Assembly: GCF_000023285.1 (NCBI RefSeq)
Contig: NC_013162.1
Span: 2,074,501-2,138,500 of the forward strand
Reading direction: 5' to 3'
Source of the DNA: Capnocytophaga ochracea DSM 7271
GTDB lineage: Bacteria; Bacteroidota; Bacteroidia; Flavobacteriales; Flavobacteriaceae
Length of the DNA: 64,000 nucleotides
Part shown: positions 4,835 to 55,733 of the stretch, piece after piece
Layout of the letters: every line of letters starts with the position of its first letter
Numbering within the stretch: position 1 is the first letter of the stretch
The notes under the pieces: generated by a model
Seen by the model: the letters and a program-made list of their open reading frames with translations, nothing else
What the model was told of the DNA's origin: nothing
Databases searched by the model: none
Program-made: the position numbers and the translations under genes

Positions 4835-4953
4835 GGATAAAAAAATGATATATAAAAATTTGAAATCATAAAGATTAATGGTTAGTGATTAATGATTAAT
4901 GGTTAAATTAAAGGAGGCTTATGGGATAAACGAACAACAAGCGAAGAAAGAAT

Positions 4954-5239
4954 GGGTCTACAGTGGGTCTACAGTGGCTCTATAGTGGCTCTATAGTGGG
5001 TCTACAGTGGGTCTACAGTGGGTCTACAGTGGGTCTACAGTGGGTCTACAGTGGGTCTACAGTGGGTCTACAGTGGGTCTACAGTGGGTCTACAGTGGGT
5101 CTACAGTGGGTCTACAGTGGGTCTACAGTGGGTCTACAGTGGGTCTACAGTGGGTCTACAGTGGGTCTACAGTGGGTCTACAGTGGGTCTACAGTGGCTC
5201 TACAGTGGCTCTATAGTGGCTCTACAGTGGGTCTATAAT
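4954..5239. repeat. Tandem array, 26 units of an 11-bp repeat (GGGTCTACAGT)
   Basis: There are exactly 26 units of 11 bp without any indel. Variation is limited to two positions: GGG/GGC at base 3 and TAC/TAT at base 8. The variants cluster at both ends (units 3-4 and the last four); the middle is perfectly uniform. Because 11 is not a multiple of 3 and the unit has no stop codon, all forward frames are open, which creates false ORFs. Confidence 0.97.
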
Positions 5240-5326: not shown

Positions 5327-5357
5327 ACTTTGCCAAAGTCTGAAACTTTGGCAAAGT
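5327..5357. repeat. Inverted repeat ACTTTGCCAAAGT / ACTTTGGCAAAGT
   Basis: Two 13-bp near-palindromic arms, 5327-5339 and 5345-5357, are separated by 5 nt. The same core (AACTTTGGCAAAGTT) occurs once more after the plug-like gene near 993-1007, and in part near 12970. It looks like a small dispersed intergenic motif; no T-run follows, so it is not a clear terminator. Confidence 0.6.
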
Positions 5358-5412: not shown

Positions 5413-5497
5413 GTGTTATTAGCAAATTAGCAAATTTGAGAATTAGCAAATGGGGGCGAGAGAATGAAATAATGTAGATATGGAGAGCTTATAGGAA

Positions 5498-5740
5498 AGA
5501 CGGTGCGAGCCGCACGGGCAGATAAACAAAAGACGAAGAAAAGACGAACAAATGACGAACAAATGACGAACAAATGACGAACAAATGACGAGCAAATGAC
5601 GAACAAAAGACGAACAAAAGACGAACAATGAACGAACAATGAACGAAGAATGAACGAAGAATGAACGAAGAAAATATGAAGGAAAAGTGAAGGAAAAGTG
5701 AAGGAAAAGTGAAGGAAAAGTGAAGGAAAAGTGAAGGAAA
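5498..5740. repeat. Hairpin unit followed by a phase-locked 11-bp array
   Basis: A 22-bp hairpin segment (5499-5520: GTGCG-AGC-CGCAC stem-loop plus GGGCA) and one 11-mer (5521-5531) lead into 19 units of 11 bp (5532-5740). The unit drifts from GACGAACAAAT through AACGAAGAATG to AGTGAAGGAAA, yet the 11-bp phase never slips. Bases 5498-5548 are identical to 34100-34150 (51 bp). Long minus-strand ORFs here are repeat artefacts. Confidence 0.9.
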
Positions 5741-5984
5741 AGATGAATGACGAATGACGAAAGCCCCCGAACCCCCGAAGGGGGACAAGCCTTAAAGAGA
5801 AATTGGTGAAGACTATCAATCTGAAAGACAAGACCTATTTGAAGAGAAAGCGAAGCTAAAGTAGACCTAAAACGAACAAATAACGCTGCGAGCCACAAGG
5901 GTGGATAAAGAATAAATGAACAAAAAGCGAATTTAAAGTAAATGAAATTGCGATTTTCTATGGCTTTATAGAAAAGATATTTGC

Positions 5985-7125: not shown

Positions 7126-7156
7126 CAAAGGTAGGGGATAATTAGCAAATTAGCAA
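7126..7156 (-). promoter_or_regulatory. Promoter of the arginase-fold gene, with octamer repeat at -33
   Basis: On the minus strand: TTG (7156-7154), 20 nt, then TACCTTTG (7133-7126), about 22 nt upstream of the ATG. The TTG lies inside tandem TTTGCTAA-type octamers. Confidence 0.75.
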
Positions 7157-7212
7157 ATTTAAGGATTAGCAAATTATTTGTGGTTCTTCATTCGTAGTTC
7201 GTAATTATTTAT

Positions 7213-7282: not shown

Positions 7283-8233
7283 ATGAAGATATTACATATA
7301 GACAGAAACCACCCCTTGATGCTTTCACAACTCGCAGCACAGGGTTTTGAAAATTACGAAGACTATAAAAGCTCTAAAGAGTCTATTGAAGCTAAAATAG
7401 CTGATTACGATGGAATTATTATCCGCAGTCGTTTTACTATAGACAGGACATTTTTAGACAAGGCGACTCGATTGAAATTCATAGGCAGAGTAGGTGCAGG
7501 GCTTGAAAATATAGACGTAGCTTATGCCGAAAGTAAAGGTATAACGCTCATCGCAGCCCCCGAAGGCAATAGAAATGCAGTAGGCGAACACGCACTCGGT
7601 ATGCTTCTGGCATTGCTGAACAAGTTTAAGAAAGCCAATAACGAAATTAAAAACGGCAAATGGTTGCGCGAGGAGAACAGAGGTTGGGAGCTTGACGGCA
7701 AGACAGTAGGTATCATAGGCTACGGCAATATGGGAAAGAGTTTTGCTAAGAAATTGCGCGGTTTTGACTGTAGTGTGATTTGCTACGATATACTCCCCAA
7801 CAAAAGTGACGAGAATGCCAAACAAGTAACCTTAGTAGATTTTTTTCGTCAGGCAGATGTAGTGAGCTTGCACACACCTCAAACCCCACAAACTATAGGT
7901 ATGGTGAATGAAGTATTTATCAATAGTTTTGCTAAGAGTTTTTGGCTCTTAAATACTGCACGTGGGAAGAGCGTAGTTACCGATGATTTGGTACGCGCCT
8001 TGCAAAGCGGGAAAGTATTAGGAGCAGGTTTAGACGTGTTAGAATATGAAAAGGCATCGTTTGAAGACTTCTTTAGCGACGAACAAATGCCCAAATCGTT
8101 TAAATATCTATTGGAAGCGGATAATGTGATTCTCACTCCTCATATTGCAGGCTGGACTTTAGAAAGTAAAGAAAAGCTTGCGCAGATAATAGTAGACAAG
8201 ATAATTAGCAAATTTGGGGAATTAGCAAATTGA
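7283..8233 (+). CDS. D-isomer-specific 2-hydroxyacid dehydrogenase (phosphoglycerate dehydrogenase-like)
   Basis: This 316-residue NAD-dependent dehydrogenase has the two-domain D-2-hydroxyacid fold. Visible signatures are the nucleotide loop GIIGYGNMGKS (about residues 147-157), the substrate/catalytic Arg in NTARGKS, the Glu in GLDVLEYE, and the acid-base His287 in TPHIAGWT. It lacks the ACT domain of long SerA enzymes. The first step of serine synthesis (3-phosphoglycerate oxidation) is plausible but no serC or serB lies nearby, so the substrate is not settled. The end of the gene runs into TTAGCAAA octamer sequence, used here as codons (ISKFGELAN). The next gene starts 14 nt downstream. 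Confidence 0.85.
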   Translation: MKILHIDRNHPLMLSQLAAQGFENYEDYKSSKESIEAKIADYDGIIIRSRFTIDRTFLDKATRLKFIGRVGAGLENIDVAYAESKGITLIAAPEGNRNAVGEHALGMLLALLNKFKKANNEIKNGKWLREENRGWELDGKTVGIIGYGNMGKSFAKKLRGFDCSVICYDILPNKSDENAKQVTLVDFFRQADVVSLHTPQTPQTIGMVNEVFINSFAKSFWLLNTARGKSVVTDDLVRALQSGKVLGAGLDVLEYEKASFEDFFSDEQMPKSFKYLLEADNVILTPHIAGWTLESKEKLAQIIVDKIISKFGELAN

Positions 8234-8247
8234 CAAATTAAATAGAA

Positions 8248-12706: not shown

Positions 12707-12794
12707 ATAGAAATAAACAAAATATATTATTTTTTATTTTTAAAAAGCTATTAACGCTATCTTATTTTCCTCTTTCCTTTAGCATTTCTTTGTT

Positions 12795-12915
12795 CATTGT
12801 TCGTCTTTTGTTCGTTCATTGTTCGTTGTAGAGCCACTGTAGACCCACTGTAGAGCCACTGTAGAGCCACTCATTGTTCGTTCTTCCTATAAGATTCGTA
12901 TAAGCTAAGTATAAG
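12795..12915. repeat. Composite 11-bp array joining three 11-mer families
   Basis: Eleven consecutive 11-mers (121 bp) with no slip. In order: three of CATTGTTCGTT type, four of GTAGAGCCACT type (reverse complement of the 4954 array), one CATTGTTCGTT, then CTTCCTATAAG, ATTCGTATAAG and CTAAGTATAAG. The same families make up separate arrays elsewhere in the window (4954, 5532, 22780, 34002, 42530, 55456). The array sits in the 558-bp gap between the thioredoxin-fold gene and dnaN; the rest of the gap is AT-rich with no gene apart from the flanking promoters. Confidence 0.95.
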
Positions 12916-13128
12916 ATTGCTTTAAACAAAAACTGTCTTTCTTTGTTGTTTATAGATTCGTTTTTCTATTGTTGGCAAAGTTTCTATTTTTTGGAATTCG
13001 TGGGAGATTAAAAAAAACAGCGAAACTACTTATTTGTAATTGCTTGTTGTGCTAAGAATTTCTGTAGTGTAAGTCATACTATCTCTTATGTCGAACTCAT
13101 ATTAAAATTAAAAAATATCTAAAAAAAT

Positions 13129-13159
13129 TTGGTAGTAACAAATATTCTTTCTACTTTTG
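13129..13159 (+). promoter_or_regulatory. dnaN promoter
   Basis: TTG (13129-13131), 20 nt, TACTTTTG (13152-13159), 53 nt upstream of the dnaN ATG. Confidence 0.7.
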
Positions 13160-13211
13160 CCATTATTACTCCGCAAAGGGGTAAGTTTTGTCATTTAAAA
13201 TATATAAAAAT

Positions 13212-14336
13212 ATGAAGTTTATAGTATCAAGTTCTTACTTATTAAAGAAGTTACAAGTATTTGGCGGTGTAATCAATAACAACAATACAATGCCTATACT
13301 CGATAACTTTTTGTTTGAACTGTCTACCAATTCTTTAACTATCTCTGCTTCCGATTTGGAAACTACTGTAAGAGGTACTTTGGAAGTAGAATCAGATTCA
13401 GAAGGGAGCATAGCAGTATCAGCTAAATTATTGACAGATATTCTTAAAACCTTTTCAGAACAACCCCTTACCTTTTTGGTAAAAGAGAATAATGTAATAG
13501 AAATTAGCTCTACTACCGGTAATTATACCTTAGCTTATTTAGATGGAGAGGAGTTTCCTCGCCCTGTAGCTTTGCCTGAAGCAAGCAAAGTAACGATGAT
13601 AGGCGATGTATTAGCAACTGCCGTGCAAAAGACTATCTTCGCAGCAGGAAATGACGATTTACGTCCTACAATGAGCGGTATTTTATTCCAATTCAGTGAA
13701 AACGGACTTACCTTTGTAGGTACTGATGCTCATAAATTAGTGAAATACGAACGCTTAGACATCAAAGCTAATGAAGCGGCTGATTTCATTATGCCTAAAA
13801 AACCGTTGAACATTCTCAAAGGTATTTTGGCAGGTAGCGAAACAGAAGTAACTGTGGAATACAACGAGAGCAATGCAAAATTCTCTTTTGACGATATGGA
13901 ATTCATCTGCCGCCTTATAGATGGTAAATATCCTAACTACGATGCAGTAATTCCTAAAGAAAATCCTAACAAACTTATCTTAAATCGTTCGCAATTCTAT
14001 AGTTCTATTAACCGTTTGTCGTTGTTTTCAAATAAAACCACTCACCAAGTGCGCTTGAAAATAGCTGGTTCTAGCTTGGTAATTTCAGCTGAGGACGTAG
14101 ATTATAGCAACAAAGGTGAGGAGCGTTTCACTTGCAACTATCAGGGAGACGATTTAGAAATAGGCTTCAACTCTAAGTTCTTGAAAGAGATGATTAATAA
14201 CTTAGACTCTGATGAAATCTTGATAGAAATGTCGTTGCCAAATCGCGCCGGACTTATCACGCCTGTTGATGGACTTGATGAGGGAGAGAAAGTGCTAATG
14301 TTGGCAATGCCAATTATGCTTAACACAAATCAATAA
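13212..14336 (+). CDS. dnaN: DNA polymerase III subunit beta (sliding clamp)
   Basis: This 374-residue processivity clamp has three similar domains and begins MKFIVSSSYLLKKLQ. Family features are NNTMPILDNFLFE near the start, DGEFPRP-like DGEEFPRP, TDAHKLV, LIDGKYPNYDAVIP, and the C-terminus PVDGLDEGEKVLMLAMPIML (the usual clamp ends with a similar PMRL/PIML strand). I use the ATG at 13212; the longer TTG frame has no support. dnaA and recF are not nearby, as is usual in this phylum. Confidence 0.97.
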   Translation: MKFIVSSSYLLKKLQVFGGVINNNNTMPILDNFLFELSTNSLTISASDLETTVRGTLEVESDSEGSIAVSAKLLTDILKTFSEQPLTFLVKENNVIEISSTTGNYTLAYLDGEEFPRPVALPEASKVTMIGDVLATAVQKTIFAAGNDDLRPTMSGILFQFSENGLTFVGTDAHKLVKYERLDIKANEAADFIMPKKPLNILKGILAGSETEVTVEYNESNAKFSFDDMEFICRLIDGKYPNYDAVIPKENPNKLILNRSQFYSSINRLSLFSNKTTHQVRLKIAGSSLVISAEDVDYSNKGEERFTCNYQGDDLEIGFNSKFLKEMINNLDSDEILIEMSLPNRAGLITPVDGLDEGEKVLMLAMPIMLNTNQ

Positions 14337-14361
14337 ATAAAGAATTTTTCATTTTTAAAAT

Positions 14362-14402
14362 GAAACGCCTTATGAGTCTCTTTTTAAGGCGTTTCTTTTT
14401 TT
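14362..14402 (+). terminator. Rho-independent terminator of dnaN
   Basis: Stem GAAACGCCTT / AAGGCGTTTC (14362-14371, 14386-14395), 14-nt loop, followed by a run of seven Ts. Confidence 0.85.
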
Positions 14403-14444
14403 AAGAGAGAAATCACAATGTTTATCATTCAAAAATAACTATCT

Positions 14445-16535
14445 ATGAAGTCCATTTTAGAAAGAATAAAACCTTTTACTTATATAGCTAGCTTATACCT
14501 TATCGTATCGTTTGTGATGCGCATCGTTTTTATGGTGCACCCTATCACTGCTACCACATTTTCGGTGTGGAGTGTGTTTAAGATGCTTTTCATAGGCTTA
14601 CTATCCGACGCTTTTGTGATAGTATTGGCAAGTAGTATTTTAATGCTTTATTTCCTATTTATTGCCAATGTAAAGTACAAAAAACCTTACGGAGGCATTA
14701 TTTTAGGAGCATTTATCCTCATACTACTCTATATACAGTTTTATCCTAACAATATATTTGCACAATATGGGGGCGTGATTCCCGAAATCGCATTAGCTTT
14801 CTTCGGCTTTAAAACGTTGTGTTTTGCTCTTTTGCTCTTTTTACCTAAGTACAGAGCCCAACTGCGCAATGCATTGTATTTTATTACGTTGGCTATCTAT
14901 GTATTTGCCATAGTGATGAATGCAGTAAGCGAATATTTCTTTTGGAATGAGTTCGGGATTCGTTATAACTTTATTGCAGTAGATTACCTTATTTATACCA
15001 ATGAAGTGATAGGTAATATAATGGAGAGTTACCCCATAGTGCCCTTATTTTCAGGGGTTTTTGTAGTAGTATTGGTAATTACTATATATTTATTTCTCAA
15101 GACTAAGAGTGCGCTAAAAACAATACCCACCCTCTTTGAAAAAACGGTTATAGTAGTGCCCTATTTGCTGTTAGTGCTTATAGGAATGTGGAGATTACCC
15201 CAGCTTGATGCTATGGTTGCCGAAAATACTTTTGCTCAAGAAATACAAAGCAATGGTGTTTACAAGTTTTATTACGCTTTTACTCATAGTGAGTTAGATT
15301 TCTTTCAGTTTTATCCTACCTTGCCAGAAAAAGAGGCTGAAAGCATTGTGCTCAAACAACTAAATGCTCCTGCCCTCGAACGACAGATTGTAGGCGATAC
15401 TACCGAAGTGCACCGTAATGTAGTACTCATTTCAATAGAAAGTCTTTCGGCGGAATACCTTACAATGTATGGCAATACTGATAATCGTACGCCTTTCTTG
15501 GATAGCTTAGCTAATAACAGCTTGTTTTTTACTAATTTGTATGCTACAGGTAACCGTACAGTACGTGGTCTGGAAGCGCTTACTCTTTGTATTCCGCCTA
15601 CTCCAGGGGAAAGTGTGGTGAAGCGCAAAGACAATAAAGATAAGTTTACCACGGGTAGCGTGTTCAAAAGTAAAGGTTATGATGTGAAATATCTCTATGG
15701 AGGCGATAGTTATTTTGATAATATGAAGGATTTCTTCAGTGGTAATGGTTACGATATTGTAGATAGCAAGAGCTTTACTCCAGAAGAAGTAACTTTTTCC
15801 AATATATGGGGCGTTTGCGATGAAGATATGGCAAACAAAGCTATAAAGGTGATGAATGAACAAGCTAAAGCAGGCAAACCATTCTTTAATCACTGGATGA
15901 CCGTGAGCAATCACCGTCCGTTTACTTATCCTGAAGGTAAAATTGATATTCCTCCTACTGAGAAACGACGTGCAGGTGGAGTAAAATATACCGATTATGC
16001 TCTCAAACGATTCTTTGAGATGGCAAAACAACAAGAGTGGTACAAAAACACTATTTTTGTGATTGTAGCCGATCACTGTGCATCGAGTGCAGGTAGTACC
16101 GAATTACCCTTAGATGGCTATCGTATCCCTTGTTTTATTGTTGCCGATTTTATCACTCCTAAGAAAATAGATATAATGGTATCACAAATAGATGTGATGC
16201 CTACCGTTTTTGGTTTGCTAAATTTCAATTATATCTCTAAGTTCATAGGGCAAGATGTACTAAAAGAAGGTTATCAGCCACGCGCTTATATTGCTACTTA
16301 TCAGGATTTAGGTTACTTAACCCCTGATAAACTCACTATTATATCACCTTTGAGAAAAACCACTCAATACAGTTTGCACAAAGAAACAGAACAACCCTCA
16401 CAAGAGTATCCCTTGTTTTATGAGCAAATAAAAGAAAATAATGTGAATAAGGAACAAGCCGATGCTTGTATTGGTACTTATCAAGCTACTGCCGAGTGGT
16501 TAAAAAACAAACAGTTCAATGCGCTCAAGAAATAA
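14445..16535 (+). CDS. LtaS-like membrane sulfatase/phosphoglycerol transferase
   Basis: A 696-residue protein with about five transmembrane segments in the first 270 residues and an extracytoplasmic alkaline-phosphatase-fold domain (about 325-650). Catalytic features of the LTA synthase family are visible: VVLISIESLSAEYL, the nucleophile Thr in ATGNRTVRGLEA, and VADHCASS. As the organism is Gram-negative, a lipoteichoic acid product is not expected. Transfer of phosphoglycerol or phosphoethanolamine to a periplasmic glycan or lipid A is a fair inference. The last 17 nt overlap the start of the HD-domain gene. Confidence 0.85.
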   Translation: MKSILERIKPFTYIASLYLIVSFVMRIVFMVHPITATTFSVWSVFKMLFIGLLSDAFVIVLASSILMLYFLFIANVKYKKPYGGIILGAFILILLYIQFYPNNIFAQYGGVIPEIALAFFGFKTLCFALLLFLPKYRAQLRNALYFITLAIYVFAIVMNAVSEYFFWNEFGIRYNFIAVDYLIYTNEVIGNIMESYPIVPLFSGVFVVVLVITIYLFLKTKSALKTIPTLFEKTVIVVPYLLLVLIGMWRLPQLDAMVAENTFAQEIQSNGVYKFYYAFTHSELDFFQFYPTLPEKEAESIVLKQLNAPALERQIVGDTTEVHRNVVLISIESLSAEYLTMYGNTDNRTPFLDSLANNSLFFTNLYATGNRTVRGLEALTLCIPPTPGESVVKRKDNKDKFTTGSVFKSKGYDVKYLYGGDSYFDNMKDFFSGNGYDIVDSKSFTPEEVTFSNIWGVCDEDMANKAIKVMNEQAKAGKPFFNHWMTVSNHRPFTYPEGKIDIPPTEKRRAGGVKYTDYALKRFFEMAKQQEWYKNTIFVIVADHCASSAGSTELPLDGYRIPCFIVADFITPKKIDIMVSQIDVMPTVFGLLNFNYISKFIGQDVLKEGYQPRAYIATYQDLGYLTPDKLTIISPLRKTTQYSLHKETEQPSQEYPLFYEQIKENNVNKEQADACIGTYQATAEWLKNKQFNALKK

Positions 16536-17736
16536 GCTAAAAATTATCAACGACCCTATTTATGGGTTTATCCATATCCCCAGCACTTTAGTGTTCGACA
16601 TTATTGAGCACCCCTATTTTCAGCGGCTCAGGCGTATCAATCAAATGGGACTTTCGTATTTGGTATTTCCAGGGGCTAAACACACTCGTTTTGAGCACGT
16701 ATTGGGGTGTGTGTTCTTAATGCAGAAAACAGTAGAGATGCTCCGTTTCAAGGGAGTACAAATCTCTGAAAAAGAGGCTGAAGGACTCTATATTGCCATA
16801 TTGTTGCACGATATAGGGCACGGACCTTTTTCTCACGCAATGGAACACAGCATTGTCGAAGGTATTTCTCACGAGGAAATCTCGTTGCGCTTTATGCAAG
16901 AGCTTAACAAGGTATTTAATGGCAAATTAGATACCGCTATAGCAATATTTCAAGGTACTTACCTTCGTAAGTTTATGCATCAACTCATCTCTGGTCAGTT
17001 AGATATGGACAGAGCCGATTACTTAAAACGCGATAGTTTTTATACAGGAGTCGCTGAGGGGAATATAAATTCTGAACGCCTTATCTCAATGCTTAACGTA
17101 CGCAACGACGAATTAGTAGTCGAAGAAAAAGGCTTATACTCGGTAGAGAAATTCCTAATAGCTCGCCGATTGATGTATTGGCAAGTGTATTTGCACAAAA
17201 CTAGCGTAGTAGCCGAGCAGATACTCATCAGGTTGCTCAATCGCGCCAAAGAGTTGGTGCAACAAGGGCAAGAACTGACTATGTCCACCGCTTTAGCTTT
17301 CTTTGTGAAAAACAAGATATCCAAAAATAATTTCTCACAAGAAGTACTTGAGATGTTTGCTTGTTTAGACGATACAGATATTATTTCAGCAATGAAAGAA
17401 TGGCAGTTCCACCCCGATGTAGTGCTTTCTAAACTCAGCAAAATGTTGCTCAACCGCGATTTGCTAAAAATAAAAGTCCGCTTAAACGATTTTGAAGAAC
17501 AGAAGATAAAGAGACTGCAGAAACTATCAGTTGCCAAAGGAGTAGAAGAAAAGGATATTAAGTACTTTGTCTTTACAGGAGTGATGACTAACAGAGCGTA
17601 TAATCCAGGAAAGGAAATAATTAAGATTCTTACCAAAAATGGAAGAGTAGTAGATCTTACTAAAACCTCTGAAGCTATCAATTTAGAACCTCTTTCACAA
17701 GTAACTGAACGATACTATATTTGCTATCCAAAGTAA
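16519..17736 (+). CDS. HD-domain phosphohydrolase (dNTPase-like)
   Basis: A 405-residue cytosolic metal-dependent phosphohydrolase. The N-terminal part has HTRFEHVLG and HDIGHGPFSHAMEH, the His-Asp ligands of the HD superfamily, then LISGQLDMDRADYLKRDSFY typical of dGTPase/SAMHD1-like proteins. This gene precedes lpxD in many flavobacteria. A dNTP triphosphohydrolase activity is plausible but not shown. It starts inside the end of the sulfatase gene (different frame), which implies coupling; an in-frame later ATG would remove conserved N-terminal residues. Confidence 0.87.
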   Translation: MRSRNKLKIINDPIYGFIHIPSTLVFDIIEHPYFQRLRRINQMGLSYLVFPGAKHTRFEHVLGCVFLMQKTVEMLRFKGVQISEKEAEGLYIAILLHDIGHGPFSHAMEHSIVEGISHEEISLRFMQELNKVFNGKLDTAIAIFQGTYLRKFMHQLISGQLDMDRADYLKRDSFYTGVAEGNINSERLISMLNVRNDELVVEEKGLYSVEKFLIARRLMYWQVYLHKTSVVAEQILIRLLNRAKELVQQGQELTMSTALAFFVKNKISKNNFSQEVLEMFACLDDTDIISAMKEWQFHPDVVLSKLSKMLLNRDLLKIKVRLNDFEEQKIKRLQKLSVAKGVEEKDIKYFVFTGVMTNRAYNPGKEIIKILTKNGRVVDLTKTSEAINLEPLSQVTERYYICYPK

Positions 17737-17811
17737 GGTAGAAAAGGAGGGAGTAAAATTACCAATAGAGAAAAAAAATAGCAAAAAGAGTGCTATATGA
17801 AATAATTTTTA

Positions 17812-17819
17812 TATTTTTG
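17812..17819 (+). promoter_or_regulatory. -7 element upstream of lpxD
   Basis: TATTTTTG, 75 nt before the lpxD ATG, in the only sizeable gap before the lipid A block. No clear TTG at -33. Confidence 0.45.
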
Positions 17820-17894
17820 TTGCGAAAAACAACCTTTTTTAAGACAAAAACATATAAATATTGCTTTATATCGTTCTGATTATAAACTAATTAA

Positions 17895-18914
17895 ATGAAA
17901 TTTACAGCATTACAAATAGCCAATGTACTCGGCGGTGAAGTAGAAGGAAATCCCCAAATTGAAGTCTATAAACTTTCAAAAATTGAAGAGGGAAGTGAAG
18001 GGAGTATATCTTTTTTGGCAAACCCTAAATACAAACATTTTATCTATACTACTCAAGCATCTATAGTGATTGTAAATAAGGACTTTGAGGCTGAAGATAA
18101 AATATCAGCAACCTTAGTGAGAGTAGACGATGCTTATGCCGCTTTTACTAAACTCTTAGAATTTTACAATCAAGTGAAAATGAATAAAGTAGGTATAGAA
18201 CAACCTTCGTTTATCGCTTCATCTGCTAAAATAGGACAAAATGTATATATAGGAGCTTTTGTGTATATTGGCGAAAATGTAGTGATAAGCGATAATGTGA
18301 AAATCTATCCTAACACTTACATAGGTGATAACTCATCAGTAGGTGAGGGGACTACTATTTTTGCAGGCTGTAAAATATATTCCGAAACTGTCATAGGTAA
18401 AGATTGTATGCTCCACAGTGGAGTAGTATTAGGGGCTGACGGATTTGGGTTCCAGCCTAATGAAAAAGGAGAGTTCAGCAGAGTACCACAGATAGGTAAT
18501 GTCGTGATTGAAGATTCTGTAGATATAGGTGCAGAAACAGCTATAGATCGTGCAACTTTAGGTTCTACTATCATTCATAAGGGAGTAAAGTTAGACAACC
18601 AAATACATATTGCCCACAATGTAGAAATAGGTAAAAATACAGTGATTGCTGCCCAAACAGGTATTGCTGGCTCAACTAAAGTAGGCGAAAATTGTATGAT
18701 AGGGGGTCAAGTGGGAATCGTAGGTCACTTAGTAATAGGCAATCGCGTGAAAATACAAGCCCAAACAGGGGTAGGTCGTAATCTTAAAGACGACGAAGCG
18801 ATACAAGGCTCTCCCGCTTTGGGGCACGCCGAATACAACAAAGCTTATGTCATTTTTAGAAAATTACCTAACTTGCTTAAACGCTTAGAAGAATTAGAAA
18901 AAAAATTAAAATAA
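17895..18914 (+). CDS. lpxD: UDP-3-O-acylglucosamine N-acyltransferase
   Basis: A 339-residue trimeric acyltransferase that adds the second hydroxyacyl chain to UDP-3-O-acyl-glucosamine in lipid A synthesis. It has the LpxD N-terminal uridine-binding domain (1-100), a left-handed beta-helix made of hexapeptide repeats (about 105-300), and the catalytic His in NQIHIAHNVEIG (about residue 239). A C-terminal helical extension (KLPNLLKRLEELEKKLK) binds acyl carrier protein in homologues. It is the first gene of the block lpxD-lpxC/fabZ-lpxA-efp-lpxD2, with 7-39 nt gaps. Confidence 0.95.
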   Translation: MKFTALQIANVLGGEVEGNPQIEVYKLSKIEEGSEGSISFLANPKYKHFIYTTQASIVIVNKDFEAEDKISATLVRVDDAYAAFTKLLEFYNQVKMNKVGIEQPSFIASSAKIGQNVYIGAFVYIGENVVISDNVKIYPNTYIGDNSSVGEGTTIFAGCKIYSETVIGKDCMLHSGVVLGADGFGFQPNEKGEFSRVPQIGNVVIEDSVDIGAETAIDRATLGSTIIHKGVKLDNQIHIAHNVEIGKNTVIAAQTGIAGSTKVGENCMIGGQVGIVGHLVIGNRVKIQAQTGVGRNLKDDEAIQGSPALGHAEYNKAYVIFRKLPNLLKRLEELEKKLK

Positions 18915-18921
18915 ATACACT

Positions 18922-20310
18922 ATGGTAAAGCAAAATACTTTATCCAAAGAAATTACCTTAGAAGGTATTGGGTTACATACTGGTAAACAAGTAAAAATGG
19001 TGCTCAAACCTGCACCAGTAGGCAATGGTTTTACCTTTGTACGTACCGATTTAGAAGGAAACCCCGTTGTCGAAGCGGATGCTACCTATGTAGCAAGTAC
19101 TGAACGTGGTACAGTCTTAGAAAAAAAAGGGGTGAAAATCCAAACTTGTGAGCACATCTTAGCAGCGCTCGTCGGTATGGATTTGGATAATGTGATTATT
19201 GAGCTCAACTCCTCTGAACCTCCTATTATGGATGGTTCTTCTAAATATTTTGTAGAAGCTATTGAAAAAGCGGGTATCACTCCTCAAGATGCAGAGCGTG
19301 ATGAATATATAGTAAAACAAGTGATTACCTACGTAAATGAAGAAACAGGTAGTGAGATTACTCTCATTCCTGCCGAGGAATACCAAGTGACTACAATGGT
19401 AGATTTTGGTACTAAGATTTTGGGCACTCAAAATGCTTACCTCAATAAACTTTCCGAATTTAAAACCGAAATAGCTGATGCTCGTACTTTTAGTTTCTTG
19501 CACGAGCTCGAAGCTTTACTTGATCACGGTTTGATTAAAGGAGGAGATTTGAATAATGCTATCGTATATGTAGATAAAGAAATTTCTGATAGTACGATGC
19601 AGAAACTTAAAAAGATTTTCAACAAAGATAATATTTCAGTGAAACCTAATGGAGTGCTTGATAATCTTACTTTGCATTACCCTAACGAAGCTGCTCGCCA
19701 TAAACTATTGGATGTAATAGGCGATTTGGCATTGGTAGGTACACGCATTCGTGGTAAAGTAATTGCTACTAAACCTGGACACTTCACCAATACCCAATTT
19801 GCTAAAAAACTTTCTAAGATTATAAAAAATGAACGTCGTAACAACGTTCCTTCTATAGATATTAATCAACCACCGTTGCTCAACACTACCGATATAATGA
19901 AGTTGTTACCTCACCGTTCACCATTCTTGTTGGTAGATAAAATCTTTGAACTTTCTGATAAACACGTTGTAGGTTTAAAGAATGTAACAATGGATGAACC
20001 TTTCTTCGTAGGGCACTTCCCAGGGGCTCCTGTAATGCCTGGTGTACTCCAAATAGAAGCAATGGCACAAACAGGAGGCGTATTGATACTCAGTACCGTC
20101 CCCGACCCCGAAAATTACCTCACTTATTTTATGAAAATAGACAATGTGAAGTTCAAGGTACAAGTAGTGCCAGGGGATACCCTTATATTCAAGTTAGAAT
20201 TGCTAACGCCTATTCGCCGTGGTATTTGCCATATGCAAGCTTACGCTTATGTGAACGGAAAGTTGGCTACTGAAGCTGAGCTAATGGCTCAAATTGTTAA
20301 AGTAAAATAA
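18922..20310 (+). CDS. lpxC-fabZ: Bifunctional LpxC deacetylase / FabZ dehydratase
   Basis: A 462-residue fusion known from Bacteroidota. Residues 1-300 are LpxC, the zinc deacetylase that commits to lipid A synthesis; zinc ligands lie in CEHILAAL and in RHKLLDVIGD (His and Asp), and the FLHELEALLDHGLIKGG segment is present. Residues about 315-462 are FabZ, 3-hydroxyacyl-ACP dehydratase, with LLPHRSPFLLVD, the catalytic His in FVGHFPGAPVMPGV and the Glu in LQIEAMAQ. The fusion links the two enzymes that compete for 3-hydroxyacyl-ACP, and may balance lipid A with fatty acid flux. Confidence 0.97.
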   Translation: MVKQNTLSKEITLEGIGLHTGKQVKMVLKPAPVGNGFTFVRTDLEGNPVVEADATYVASTERGTVLEKKGVKIQTCEHILAALVGMDLDNVIIELNSSEPPIMDGSSKYFVEAIEKAGITPQDAERDEYIVKQVITYVNEETGSEITLIPAEEYQVTTMVDFGTKILGTQNAYLNKLSEFKTEIADARTFSFLHELEALLDHGLIKGGDLNNAIVYVDKEISDSTMQKLKKIFNKDNISVKPNGVLDNLTLHYPNEAARHKLLDVIGDLALVGTRIRGKVIATKPGHFTNTQFAKKLSKIIKNERRNNVPSIDINQPPLLNTTDIMKLLPHRSPFLLVDKIFELSDKHVVGLKNVTMDEPFFVGHFPGAPVMPGVLQIEAMAQTGGVLILSTVPDPENYLTYFMKIDNVKFKVQVVPGDTLIFKLELLTPIRRGICHMQAYAYVNGKLATEAELMAQIVKVK

Positions 20311-20316
20311 AAGTAT

Positions 20317-21111
20317 ATGATTCAACCTTTGGCTTATGTCCACCCCGATGCCAAAATCGCTAAAAATGTAGTGATAGAGCCTTTTACTACTATCAGTAAA
20401 AATGTAGAAATAGGTGAGGGCACTTGGATAGGACCTAACGTAACCATTATGGAGGGAGCGCGTATAGGGAAGAACTGCAAAATTTTTCCTGGAGCTGTAA
20501 TTTCAGCTATTCCACAAGATCTCAAGTATAAAGGTGAAGAAACCACTACTCACATAGGCAATAATACTACTATCAGAGAGTGTGTAACCATCAATAAAGG
20601 TACTGTCGACCGTATGAGAACTGTAGTAGGCAACAATTGCTTGATAATGGCTTACTCTCATATCGCTCACGATTGTATTGTGGGGGACAACTGTATTTTC
20701 TCTAATGGTACTACTCTTGCAGGACACGTAACTGTAGGTGATTGTGCTGTGATGGCAGGAATGACTGCTGTTTATCAGTTTTGTTCTATAGGGAGTTATG
20801 CTTTTGTAACAGGAGGTTCGCTCGTAGGTAAAGATGTTCCCCCTTATGTAAAGGCCGCGCGCAACCCACTTTCTTATGTAGGGGTGAATTCTATAGGGTT
20901 ACATCGTCGTGGATTTACTACTGAGAAAATACGTGAGATACAAGATATTTACCGTGTACTTTTCCAAAAGAAACTCAGTACCTCTCACGCTTTGGACTAT
21001 ATAGAAGCTGAAATGGAAGCCACTGTAGAACGCGATGAGATATTGCAATTCGTGCGTCGCTCACAGCACGGTATTATGAAAGGCTATCACGGTGAATTAA
21101 TAAAAGAGTAA
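20317..21111 (+). CDS. lpxA: UDP-N-acetylglucosamine O-acyltransferase
   Basis: A 264-residue trimeric enzyme for the first step of lipid A synthesis. It is a left-handed beta-helix with hexapeptide repeats over residues 1-185; the catalytic His lies in MAYSHIAHDC (about residue 124), followed by NPLSYVGVNSIGLHRRGF and a C-terminal helical domain. It starts 6 nt after lpxC-fabZ. Length is standard. Substrate chain length cannot be read with confidence. Confidence 0.97.
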   Translation: MIQPLAYVHPDAKIAKNVVIEPFTTISKNVEIGEGTWIGPNVTIMEGARIGKNCKIFPGAVISAIPQDLKYKGEETTTHIGNNTTIRECVTINKGTVDRMRTVVGNNCLIMAYSHIAHDCIVGDNCIFSNGTTLAGHVTVGDCAVMAGMTAVYQFCSIGSYAFVTGGSLVGKDVPPYVKAARNPLSYVGVNSIGLHRRGFTTEKIREIQDIYRVLFQKKLSTSHALDYIEAEMEATVERDEILQFVRRSQHGIMKGYHGELIKE

Positions 21112-21150
21112 GAACTTAAAACTAAAAACAAATAACTTAAAATAGAATAA

Positions 21151-21717
21151 ATGGCAACAACCGCAGACATTAAAAAAGGATTATGCATTCGCTTCAATCA
21201 CGATATCTACAAAATTATTGAATTTCTACACGTAAAACCAGGTAAAGGGCCTGCTTTTGTACGTACTAAACTCAAAAGTGTTACCACAGGTAAAATTCTT
21301 GACAACACTTTCTCTGCTGGTCACAAAATTGAAGATGTACGTGTCGAAACTCGTTCTTTCCAATATTTGTATGCCGAAGGCGATGAGTTCGTATTTATGA
21401 ACAACGACGACTTCAACCAAGTGCATATTCGTAAAGATATGCTCGATTACCCCGATTTGCTTAAAGAAGGAGAAACCGTGATGGTGATCTTCAATGCCGA
21501 AGACGAAACACCGCTTTCAGTAGAAATGCCTGCCAATGTCATCCTTACCGTTACACACGTAGAACCAGGAGTAAAAGGTAATACAGCTACTAATGCTACC
21601 AAACCTGCTACTGTTGAAACAGGAGCTACCGTGAATGTACCTCTTTTTATCAACGAAGGTGACCGCATTAAGGTAGAAACTGAAAAAGGTACTTATGTCG
21701 AAAGAATGAAAGACTAA
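21151..21717 (+). CDS. efp: Elongation factor P
   Basis: A 188-residue translation factor that relieves ribosome stalling at polyproline. It has a KOW-like N-terminal domain with Lys32 in HVKPGKGPAF at the tip that enters the peptidyl-transferase centre, then two OB-type domains (YLYAEGDEFVFMN, and the C-terminal FINEGDRIKVETEKGTYVER). No efmA (epmA) or earP gene lies nearby, so the modification of Lys32 is unknown. Its place inside the lipid A block is common in flavobacteria. Confidence 0.97.
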   Translation: MATTADIKKGLCIRFNHDIYKIIEFLHVKPGKGPAFVRTKLKSVTTGKILDNTFSAGHKIEDVRVETRSFQYLYAEGDEFVFMNNDDFNQVHIRKDMLDYPDLLKEGETVMVIFNAEDETPLSVEMPANVILTVTHVEPGVKGNTATNATKPATVETGATVNVPLFINEGDRIKVETEKGTYVERMKD

Positions 21718-21719
21718 TT

Positions 21720-22637
21720 ATGCGTTTCTCACAGCCTTATACCCTTAAACAAATAGCTACTATCATCAATGCGAAATACGTAGGTGCAGAAGATTTTCCC
21801 GTACTTGGAATGAACGAAATTCACGTGGTACAAGCAGGTGATATAGTCTTTGTGGATCATCCTAAGTATTACGAGAAAGCATTACATTCTAAGGCTACTA
21901 TTGTACTGATTAATAAAGAAGTCGAGTGCCCTGAAGGGAAGGCCCTTTTAATATCTGATGACCCTTTTCGCGATTTCAACAAACTTACTGACTTTTTTAA
22001 ACCCTTTCAAAATGCAACTGCACTTATAGCTCCTTCAGCACGTATAGGTGAAAATACAGTAGTGCAGCCAGGTGCTTTTGTTGGTAATAATGTAGTAATA
22101 GGTAACAACTGCCGGATTCATTCTAATGTGAGTATCTACGACGATTGTGTGATAGGTGATAACGTAACTATTCACGCCGGCACAGTGCTCGGAGCAGATG
22201 CTTTTTATTACAAAAAACGTCCCGAAGGTTTTGATAAGCTCAAGTCCGGTGGTCGTGTAGTAATTGAGGATAATGTCGATTTAGGAGCTCTTTGTACTAT
22301 TGATAGAGGAGTAACAGGTGATACCACTATCAAAAAAGGAACTAAGATAGACAATCAAGTGCATATAGGTCATGATACAGTAGTAGGAGAGAAGTGCCTC
22401 ATTGCTTCACAAACAGGAATTGCTGGTTGTGTGGTAATAGAAAATGAAGTAACCATTTGGGGACAAGTAGGGATGACTAGCGGTATCACCATAGGTGAGA
22501 AAGCAGTAATTTTAGCCCAAAGTGGTATTTCTAAATCCTTAGAGGGTGGACAAACTTACTTTGGTTATCCTGCTGGTGAAGCTCGTGAGAAATATAAAGA
22601 AATGAGTGCACTCAAACAGCTTATCAATTGTAAATAA
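21720..22637 (+). CDS. Second LpxD-type acyltransferase
   Basis: A 305-residue paralogue of lpxD. It has the same N-terminal domain (TLKQIATIINAKYVGAEDFPV), hexapeptide beta-helix, and the catalytic His in NQVHIGHDTVVG. It differs by an insertion around YYKKRPEGFDKLKSGG and lacks the long C-terminal helix of LpxD (ends KEMSALKQLINCK). A second N-acyltransferase of different chain preference, or a role in another acylated sugar, are both possible. It starts 2 nt after efp and ends the operon before a terminator. Confidence 0.85.
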   Translation: MRFSQPYTLKQIATIINAKYVGAEDFPVLGMNEIHVVQAGDIVFVDHPKYYEKALHSKATIVLINKEVECPEGKALLISDDPFRDFNKLTDFFKPFQNATALIAPSARIGENTVVQPGAFVGNNVVIGNNCRIHSNVSIYDDCVIGDNVTIHAGTVLGADAFYYKKRPEGFDKLKSGGRVVIEDNVDLGALCTIDRGVTGDTTIKKGTKIDNQVHIGHDTVVGEKCLIASQTGIAGCVVIENEVTIWGQVGMTSGITIGEKAVILAQSGISKSLEGGQTYFGYPAGEAREKYKEMSALKQLINCK

Positions 22638-22696: not shown

Positions 22697-22779
22697 ATCA
22701 CTTTACCTTCGATCAAAACTCTTTTTTCTCTTAGTTCTTAACTGCTAATTCTCAACTTTTTATATAGCTATTGTATACC

Positions 22780-22834
22780 AATCGTCCAAGATTCGTTCAA
22801 GCTTCCTATAAGCTTTGTATAAGCTAACTATAAC
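22780..22834. repeat. 11-bp array, CTATAAG family (5 units)
   Basis: Five 11-mers in phase: AATCGTCCAAG, ATTCGTTCAAG, CTTCCTATAAG, CTTTGTATAAG, CTAACTATAAC, preceded by ATACC. The same ordered cassette appears at 55456-55499 and, reversed, at 42530-42573. It lies in the 337-bp gap before the ccs gene; nothing else but the terminator and promoter is seen there. Confidence 0.85.
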
Positions 22835-33902: not shown

Positions 33903-33933
33903 CAAAGATAGGGAATAATTGGCAAATTAGCAA
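33903..33933 (-). promoter_or_regulatory. Promoter of the S46 peptidase gene, with octamer-type -33 region
   Basis: On the minus strand: TTG (33933-33931), 20 nt, TATCTTTG (33910-33903), about 30 nt upstream of the ATG. The upstream part is TTTGCTAATTTGCC. Confidence 0.75.
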
Positions 33934-33935
33934 AT

Positions 33936-34001: not shown

Positions 34002-34199
34002 GATGAACAAAAGACGAACAATGAACGAACAATGAACGAACAAAAGACGAACAAAAGACGAACAAAAGACGAACAAAAGACGAACAAAAGACAAACAAAA
34101 GACGGTGCGAGCCGCACGGGCAGATAAACAAAAGACGAAGAAAAGACGAAGAAAGGACGAAGAAAGGACGAAGAAAGGACGAAGAAAAGACAAACCAAG
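34002..34199. repeat. Two 11-bp arrays flanking an in-phase hairpin
   Basis: Nine 11-mers of GACGAACAAAA / AACGAACAATG type (34002-34100), a 22-bp hairpin segment (34101-34122) and seven 11-mers of GACGAAGAAAA type (34123-34199). The hairpin takes exactly two 11-bp slots. Bases 34100-34150 are identical to 5498-5548. Long minus-strand ORFs here are repeat artefacts. Confidence 0.92.
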
Positions 34200-40298: not shown

Positions 40299-40503
40299 AA
40301 AATTCTACAGAACACAACCTTCCCCAAGCTGTGGGAGACAAAATTTTATAGAACACGACCTTCCCCAAGCTGTGGGAGACAAAATTTTACAGAACACGAC
40401 CTTCCCCAAGCTGTGGGAGACAAAATTCTATAGAACACGACCTTCCCCAAGCTGTGGGAGACAAAATTTTACAGAACACGACCTTCCTCAAACTGCGGGA
40501 GAT
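40299..40503. repeat. Five tandem 41-bp repeats
   Basis: Five units of 41 bp (starts 40299, 40340, 40381, 40422, 40463) without indels. A truncated sixth follows to about 40517. Each has an AT-rich part (AAAATTTTACAGAACACGAC) and a GC-rich hairpin-like part (CTTCCCCAAGCTGTGGGAG). The last unit is the most diverged (TCCTCAAACTGCGGGA). They make up most of the 325-bp gap between the isochorismate synthase and the DUF4369 genes. 41 is not a multiple of 11, so this is a different repeat type. Confidence 0.95.
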
Positions 40504-40605
40504 AATTTTCTATAGAAAATGAATTGAAAACAAAGTGTGACACGTAATTATCAATTGATGAAGGGTAGAAACACAAATGTAATAATTATTAATAACTAAA
40601 TTATA

Positions 40606-42358: not shown

Positions 42359-42529
42359 AAATAATTGATTCATACCAGAAATGTCAATAATGCCAATGAT
42401 GCCAGAAATACCTGAGGCAATAAAAAAACTTTAACAAAGTGTGTACTACAAAAGTGGCATATTAGGGCTTTTCGGAAGGAAACGAAGGGTATCGTAGCAG
42501 GTGTGAAAGTGCTTTTAAGATGGGATTAG

Positions 42530-42573
42530 CTTATAGAAAGCTTATAGGAAGCTTATACGAATGTTGGAAGATT
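42530..42573. repeat. 11-bp array, CTATAAG family, reverse orientation (4 units)
   Basis: CTTATAGAAAG, CTTATAGGAAG, CTTATACGAAT, GTTGGAAGATT, then GGTAT. On the minus strand it reads ATACC-AATCTTCCAAC-ATTCGTATAAG-CTTCCTATAAG-CTTTCTATAAG, that is, the cassette of 22780 and 55456. Confidence 0.88.
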
Positions 42574-55147: not shown

Positions 55148-55455
55148 CTGAAAAAAAGTGGAAACTAAAAACTAAACAGCTAAAAAAGTGTATTGATATG
55201 GTTAATAAGCTGTTTTTCTATAATATAACTCCTTATTTTATAGAAGTTTAAAAGGCTGTTCTATAATAATCGTACAAGATTCCGTATAAGATTCCTATAA
55301 GCTAAGCATATTTTTCCTCCGAGTTTTTTAGAGTTCCTCCATATTTCTCCAATATCTCATCTTACCTTTTCTTTCGCCTCGTAACCCCGTTTTTAGCATT
55401 TTTTGCGTTGTTGTATCATATTATTAATCAATTACTTATATACCCTTTCTATACC

Positions 55456-55499
55456 AATCGTCCAAGATTCGTATAAGCTTCCTATAAGCTCTCTATAAG
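55456..55499. repeat. 11-bp array, CTATAAG family (4 units)
   Basis: AATCGTCCAAG, ATTCGTATAAG, CTTCCTATAAG, CTCTCTATAAG, preceded by ATACC: the same order as at 22780 and (reversed) 42530. Confidence 0.9.
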
Positions 55500-55626
55500 C
55501 TACCCCCACCCTTCTTACACCCTTTTCTCTTCAAAATTACTCTCAGTGTACTTCTGATATTTTTCGTTTCCTTCCGAAATTTCCATCTTCCTCCGACTAA
55601 TCAAATAACTATTTTAATCTCTCCCC

Positions 55627-55722
55627 ATCATTTCCTAATTTCCAAATTTGCTAATCTGCTAATTTTCACATTTGCTAATTCCCTAATTTCCTAATTTCCA
55701 AATTTGCTAATTCCCTAATTAT
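55627..55722. repeat. Tandem 8-bp array, 12 units (CTAATTTC / CAAATTTG type)
   Basis: Twelve octamers in phase, mostly CTAATTTC, CTAATTCC, CAAATTTG or CACATTTG. The array runs up to the promoter -7 box and one CAAATTTG unit gives its -33 TTG. Confidence 0.88.
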
Positions 55723-55733
55723 CCTTATCTTTG
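55704..55733 (+). promoter_or_regulatory. Promoter of the L,D-transpeptidase gene
   Basis: TTG (55704-55706, in an octamer), 19 nt, TATCTTTG (55726-55733), 21 nt before the ATG. Confidence 0.75.

Follow-up and report, generated by a model that had tools for sequence, protein, structure and literature searches.

Composite intergenic arrays of 11-bp repeats sharing one register in the genome of Capnocytophaga ochracea

The Capnocytophaga ochracea chromosome carries intergenic arrays in which unrelated 11-bp units follow one another in a stereotyped order. On the purine-rich strand, the composite consists of CTTATAG-type units (C'), one GAACAA unit, a variable number of TCTACAG units (B), a variable number of GAACAA units (A) and finally decayed 11-mers. 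We consider it probable (roughly 60%) that these arrays are composite intergenic minisatellites of common descent, which change in whole 11-bp steps and have spread by recombination. This reading draws on the stereotyped order and strand of the families, their shared 11-bp register, the many copies in this genome and the few in two sister genomes. The window, that is the whole stretch of 64,000 nucleotides analysed, covers positions 2,074,501-2,138,500 of the one-contig genome (2,612,925 bp).

The array at 12795-12915, upstream of dnaN, comprises eleven 11-mers of three sequence families in one register, as the first-pass annotation had described. The units read, in order, CATTGTTCGTC, TTTTGTTCGTT, CATTGTTCGTT; four copies of GTAGASCCACT; CATTGTTCGTT; and CTTCCTATAAG, ATTCGTATAAG, CTAAGTATAAG, and the 11 bases before them (12784, ATTTCTTTGTT) match the register weakly as well. 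Across 12784-12915, 78 of 121 comparisons match at lag 11, compared with 27 to 41 at the other lags from 6 to 20, and none of 10,000 base shuffles of this stretch reached 78 matches (maximum 50). Read as its reverse complement, the array is C', one A-like unit, four B units and three A units. The annotation had called the order of families mixed; instead, it is stereotyped and non-random, that of a recurrent composite, and mixed arrays of this kind recur at other loci, so that the one near dnaN is not unique to its place. The single-family arrays that it had named elsewhere in the window (starting at 4953, 5532, 22780, 34002, 42530 and 55456) are all present (Table 1).

Table 1. Repeat blocks and the dnaN gene in the window (positions counted from its first base).
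Feature	Position	Strand	Basis
B array, 26 units TGGSTCTAYAG	4953..5238	+	
Hairpin module (GTGCG-AGC-CGCAC, 22 bp) with a single decayed A unit, both in the A array's register	5499..5531	+	
A array, 13 units, GACGAACAAAA/AACGAAGAATG type	5532..5674	+	
D array (GAAGGAAAAGT type), in register after the A array	5675..5747	+	
A block, three GAACAA-type 11-mers (TTGTTCGT on +)	12795..12827	-	unit cutting, orientation, order
B block, four 11-mers GTAGASCCACT (TCTACAG type on -)	12828..12871	-	
Single A-type unit, far side of the B block	12872..12882	-	
C-type units, three 11-mers with TATAAG end on +	12883..12915	-	
dnaN (DNA polymerase III subunit beta), downstream of the array	13188..14336	+	TIGR00663, E 2.5e-79, above cut-off
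C core (CTATAAG 11-mers), divergent copy of the dispersed C element	22777..22833	+	
A array, nine units	34002..34100	+	
In-register hairpin module separating two A blocks	34101..34133	+	
Second A block, six units, GACGAAGAAAG type	34134..34199	+	
C core, divergent copy	42528..42567	-	
C core of a C element copy; second CTATAAG array at 55261-55301	55451..55505	+	

In 35 array clusters, the purine-rich strand was divided into successive 11-mers. The arrays bearing B units follow one plan: often C' (CTTATAG), next an A-like unit (GAACAATGAGT and similar), B (GGSTCTACAGT), A or other 11-mers and, at the end of the composite, decayed 11-mers such as GAAGACTAACC AAAGATTAATT GAATACTAACT. Among the matches listed (for A, 100 of 151 and 100 of 119; for B, one strand whole, with 81, and the other up to 1.89 Mb as judged by coordinate order), A and B are neighbours within 700 bp in ten cases, all ten on the same strand and nine with B before A; three further adjacent B-A pairs lie at 2025286, 2284892 and 2353216. 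Consecutive intergenic A or B kernels at most 60 bp apart are spaced by a multiple of 11 in 437 of 484 cases, and in 62 of 101 when they lie beyond the adjacent unit (>11 bp apart). The same holds for 13/13 kernel pairs flanking the unrelated 22-bp hairpin module, which occupies two grid units, and for 19/32 pairs of different families, a count that contains one free choice in 11, the A-to-B kernel offset having been fixed beforehand from arrays seen. The register also extends into the 93 flanks beyond the detected arrays, where lags 11, 22 and 33 stand out (0.357, 0.341 and 0.328; other lags 0.271-0.320), and a higher-order repeat of nine units is present in the array at 2527666. The earlier proposal that sequence is exchanged while unit length is kept thus survives in part: the families do share one register, but the array is an ordered composite, and free swapping of units is not supported. 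Because the three-family array is one copy of this composite, most of the apparent swapping would reflect common descent, with blocks growing separately.

The CTATAAG family mostly represents a dispersed element, here called the C element, which is about 230 bp long and has 11-mers at its core. Copies carrying the core word number 34 in 904 kb, the total C. ochracea sequence sampled (about 35% of the genome), and some of them are alike in the core alone. In being dispersed, non-coding and intergenic, with an internal array, these copies resemble a MITE with an internal minisatellite.

Eleven base pairs is the dominant unit length in this genome, which supports the annotation on this point. Tandem Repeats Finder (TRF) rows, which may overlap, were counted in 864 kb (the window and 40 spaced 20-kb stretches): 101 have period 11, whereas periods 10, 12 and 13 have 6, 17 and 5, and periods 7 (60 rows) and 8 (52 rows) are raised too. 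A stricter definition of tracts left 73 at lag 11, none at lag 10, two at lag 12 and 28 each at lags 7 and 8, and a single simulation of these stretches under a first-order Markov model had no tract at lags 5 to 33. One dominant unit length is therefore common to several families (A, B, C and D), and it is 11 nt rather than the 7 nt of heptamer repeats, period 7 being secondary. The annotation's statement that all arrays are intergenic agrees with the position of the A, B and C arrays outside predicted genes (86/86 TRF arrays, ORFs of at least 300 bp), a result that is partly built in because ORFs with more than 15% array content were removed beforehand. Gaps with arrays are enriched between divergent genes (25/61 versus 13/85 array-free gaps of at least 300 bp, p = 0.001); their depletion between convergent genes is not significant (5/61 versus 13/85, p = 0.31).

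We compared DnaA in 17 of 19 relatives, the closest being G018 (97.3%) and G010 (97.1%), followed by G009 (90.1%) and G013 (88.8%); the values for G008 and G019 are 83.8% and 83.1%. The two closest sisters have few period-11 TRF rows (9 in 600 kb of G010 and 5 in 413 kb of G018). A scan of the relatives for 11-mers found two other Capnocytophaga species to be rich in them, with mostly different letters (G013, 12 rows in 120 kb; G008, 16 in 140 kb), together with 4 rows in 140 kb of G002, 2 in 120 kb of G019 and none in 100 kb of G011. Exact matches to the A pattern number 270 in C. ochracea, one each in G008 and G010 and none in the other 17 of 20 genomes; the B pattern occurs 303 times in C. 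ochracea, then 7 (G010), 4 (G008), 3 (G011) and 2 times (G013), with none in the other 15. The C element query found at least 39 places in C. ochracea (39 of 185 candidates scored), three in G008 and none in 17 other genomes; in G011 it matched weakly at one place, over 36 bases. Two gene pairs are conserved in G010 with no array and a shorter gap, 200 versus 559 bp and 337 versus 760 bp, lengths taken between match ends in G010 and between ORFs in C. ochracea. At one place G010 and G018 have in common a four-unit A-like array that differs by substitutions only, so low-copy 11-mers predate their split; G010 also has a single B array and a further array whose units vary but stay in register (ACCCCACAGCC, TCTCTACAGCC, ACCATACAGCC). 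Across 78 DnaN loci, mostly of other genera and totalling 1.54 Mb, period 11 accounts for 11 rows, compared with 7 for period 10 and 36 for period 12, and none of the period-11 arrays has four or more copies, which led us to reject an excess at 11 bp as a family-wide feature.

Two observations concern the 11-mer-rich relatives themselves. In G008, the stretch C1:2450001-2470000 has a lower GC content (0.388, against 0.42-0.46 in other samples of that genome) and contains repeats of types A, B and C that are similar to the C. ochracea ones; it is possibly transferred DNA. In G013, several places carry a recurrent element about four 11-mers long, in which AACGAAGGATA alternates with AACGAACTATA and kin.

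If the arrays are composite minisatellites, old arrays of decayed 11-mers would have been their substrate, and whole units would be gained or lost, one to about nine at once, by replication slippage and unequal recombination, a process by which blocks grow separately while the register is maintained. The composite and its modules (the 22-bp hairpin and the ~230-bp C element) would have spread by ectopic recombination or gene conversion between copies, and such events may have aided rearrangements. One turn of DNA per unit may favour the 11-bp step; a function of the grid would not be required. Two things count against common descent alone, namely the abundance in G008 and G013 of 11-mers with mostly other letters and the avoidance of half the chromosome by the listed A arrays. 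It also counts against this reading that neither target-site duplications nor terminal inverted repeats indicate a route of spreading, and that the link to rearrangement loses significance among long gaps.

That link is as follows. Compared with C. periodontitidis, homology of the dnaN region spans 13104 to 22636, with repeats near both ends. Synteny is broken in 20 of 22 gap-by-genome rows for gaps with A/B arrays or C elements; the remaining gaps give 44 of 136 (p = 2e-7). Here 'broken' counts absent neighbours too, and one gap may count once per sister genome. This comparison excluded gaps shorter than 20 or longer than 3000 bp, genes with no match of 60% identity over 40% of their length, and non-conserved cases whose gene lay no more than 4 kb from the end of a sampled piece. 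Among gaps of at least 400 bp the difference is not significant (20/22 versus 8/12, p = 0.15), and gap length may therefore explain the association. The 11-mer arrays may help to reshuffle the chromosome.

Several other origins were weighed. The arrays could be binding platforms in which each 11-mer places a site for a nucleoid or regulatory protein on the same face of the DNA, with the register selected more than the letters and the families differing by region. The register held through unrelated hairpin modules and decayed flanks fits this idea, as do the enrichment between divergent genes, the same-sense reading of the gene downstream of the C element (25/34, p = 0.009) and the zonal distribution of A arrays described below. 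However, two sisters about 97% identical in DnaA manage with few arrays, the idea comes with no candidate protein, and whole-unit slippage would keep the register in the absence of selection; we regard such a platform as unlikely. Movement as a MITE-like element with an internal minisatellite, driven by a transposase in trans, would account for the dispersed C element and for the array-free sites in G010, and BrickBuilt (PMC4596501) offers a precedent. Yet 300 bp around one C element copy contain no inverted repeat of at least 11, no target-site duplication was seen by eye in the two array-free gene pairs of G010, and C. ochracea has no transposase of the Y1 family, the one searched, which makes this route quite improbable.

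The arrays might also act as RNA, as transcribed leaders or spacers with repeated structure. The stems of the short hairpin do vary with pairing kept (in 904 kb, GTGCG/CGCAC 20, GTCGT/ACGAC 12 and GTGTG/CACAC 6; one GTGCG/CGCAC hairpin each in the sampled parts of G010 and G018), and their commonest intermediate, GTGCG/CACAC (10), would form a G-U pair on the pyrimidine-rich strand. Folding of four strands from two arrays nonetheless shows them to be no more stable than shuffles (z 2.06, 0.69, -0.65 and -0.17), only the short hairpin forming, and Rfam gave nothing at the window arrays save a sub-threshold plant microRNA match at 5004-5107; we rejected RNA structure of the arrays as a whole and consider an RNA role very unlikely. 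Repeated copying of short templates by a reverse transcriptase would, in principle, turn a fixed step and different templates into a fixed length with varied letters. This origin, already disfavoured, is extremely unlikely: PF00078 has no match in C. ochracea or in G008 and G013, which are rich in 11-mers in the samples, and one in 7 of 20 genomes. Mobilisation of the RAYT/REP kind was likewise dismissed, for hairpins are present but PF01797 is unmatched in C. ochracea (2 of 20 genomes match), as was loss of MutS, since mutS is over its cut-off in 20/20 genomes.

The families also differ in chromosomal position. The segment 0.355-1.62 Mb, a zone chosen post hoc that makes up about half of the chromosome, holds none of 36 listed A clusters versus 18 of 38 listed B clusters (Fisher p = 6e-7). 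When no zone is imposed, median distances from dnaA (2.323 Mb) in the sample are 275 kb for A (26), 701 kb for B (18) and 657 kb for C (36), compared with 618 kb for the sampled DNA; A differs from B (p = 0.005) and from C (p = 0.0004), and B does not differ from C (p = 0.45). All 39 scored C elements lie within 0.075-1.83 Mb, around the probable origin. Identity among 34 C element copies falls weakly with linear chromosome distance (Spearman -0.18, p = 0.0005) and along the origin-terminus axis (-0.17, p = 0.008), a trend due in part to copies that are alike in the core only. Near 1.0 Mb the GC skew turns from minus to plus, although exceptions occur elsewhere; two 16S places were found, on the plus strand at 1.70 Mb and on the minus strand at 0.72 Mb (the VPI 2845T genome report gives four copies; PMC3035226); and DnaA-box-like words in the sample cluster most densely at 975-995 kb. 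On these three grounds, a position near 1.0 Mb is probable for the origin, and one close to the terminus for dnaA; the coding strand gave no clear answer as an origin indicator in C. ochracea. We use 'dnaA pole' as a safe term for the centre of the A-array zone. In the genus more widely, dnaA seems to lie opposite the skew-defined origin, near the terminus (G000:C1:2323163; G019:C1:25).

Because common descent alone does not explain why 11 recurs with other letters in G008 and G013, we keep a reading in which the 11-bp register itself would be maintained, by a protein or a one-turn replication step, while letters drift and unit families serve as chromosome addresses; we hold it to be rather improbable. 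If it were true, the GAACAA arrays would mark the surroundings of the dnaA pole, which is probably the terminus, the TCTACAG arrays other regions as well, and the C elements the region around the probable origin. Chromosome-domain sites exist in E. coli, where matS is restricted to a single region and has a protein dedicated to binding it.

Among known systems, the closest in form are heptamer direct repeats (TAACTGA and others), reported in the available text of PMC4679880 from Beggiatoaceae, Cyanobacteria and some Bacteroidetes. They are described there as intergenic, of one unit length and with several families often mixed within one spacer; most differences in spacer length are whole units (7 nt in Cyanothece), and in relatives of two Bacteroidetes the spacers are shorter and free of the repeats. 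The author suggests a role in rearrangement, and the paper separately cites Mrazek et al. 2007 for 7-nt units being commonest and perhaps reflecting a polymerase footprint. The C. ochracea arrays resemble them in being intergenic, with a fixed unit length, several families and whole-unit steps, and by analogy would work like them with an 11-nt instead of a 7-nt unit; a fixed family order, an in-register hairpin module and chromosome zoning are not found for heptamers in those portions of PMC4679880. BrickBuilt of Porphyromonas gingivalis, according to PMC4596501, is a MITE whose internal array of 23-nt units of one family is flanked by a leader and tail and small inverted-repeat ends. It shares with the C. 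ochracea arrays an oral Bacteroidota host and intergenic, non-coding, dispersed copies with an internal tandem array, whereas the latter draw on several families of 11-nt units and lack such ends in the single copy tested. Among the open-licence papers listed, no description of these 11-bp repeats was found. Intergenic arrays of Neisseria meningitidis (dRS3 and others) are mosaic accretions of several short modules, some palindromic; they resemble the C. ochracea arrays as mosaics of short intergenic modules, and we know of no 11-bp register in them. The C. ochracea arrays represent a second fixed repeat length, 11, beside the known 7-nt repeats, with unrelated modules in one register, and make it testable whether DNA helical phase governs the growth of bacterial minisatellites. 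C. ochracea and its close sisters also provide a natural experiment in intergenic repeat expansion and chromosome rearrangement.

Other repeats accompany the 11-mers in the window. Units of 8 bp (AATTAGCA and variants) form a second family, which often lies beside 11-mer arrays (5418-5451, 7140-7159, 8203-8240, 33917-33935 and 55630-55725), and an intergenic 41-bp tandem repeat of 5.3 copies, unrelated in length to the 11-mers, occupies 40299-40517. Finally, the spacer between the B and A arrays contains a perfect 13-bp inverted repeat at 5327-5357 (ACTTTGCCAAAGT/ACTTTGGCAAAGT, 5-nt loop), and similar text recurs in the spacers of other arrays.
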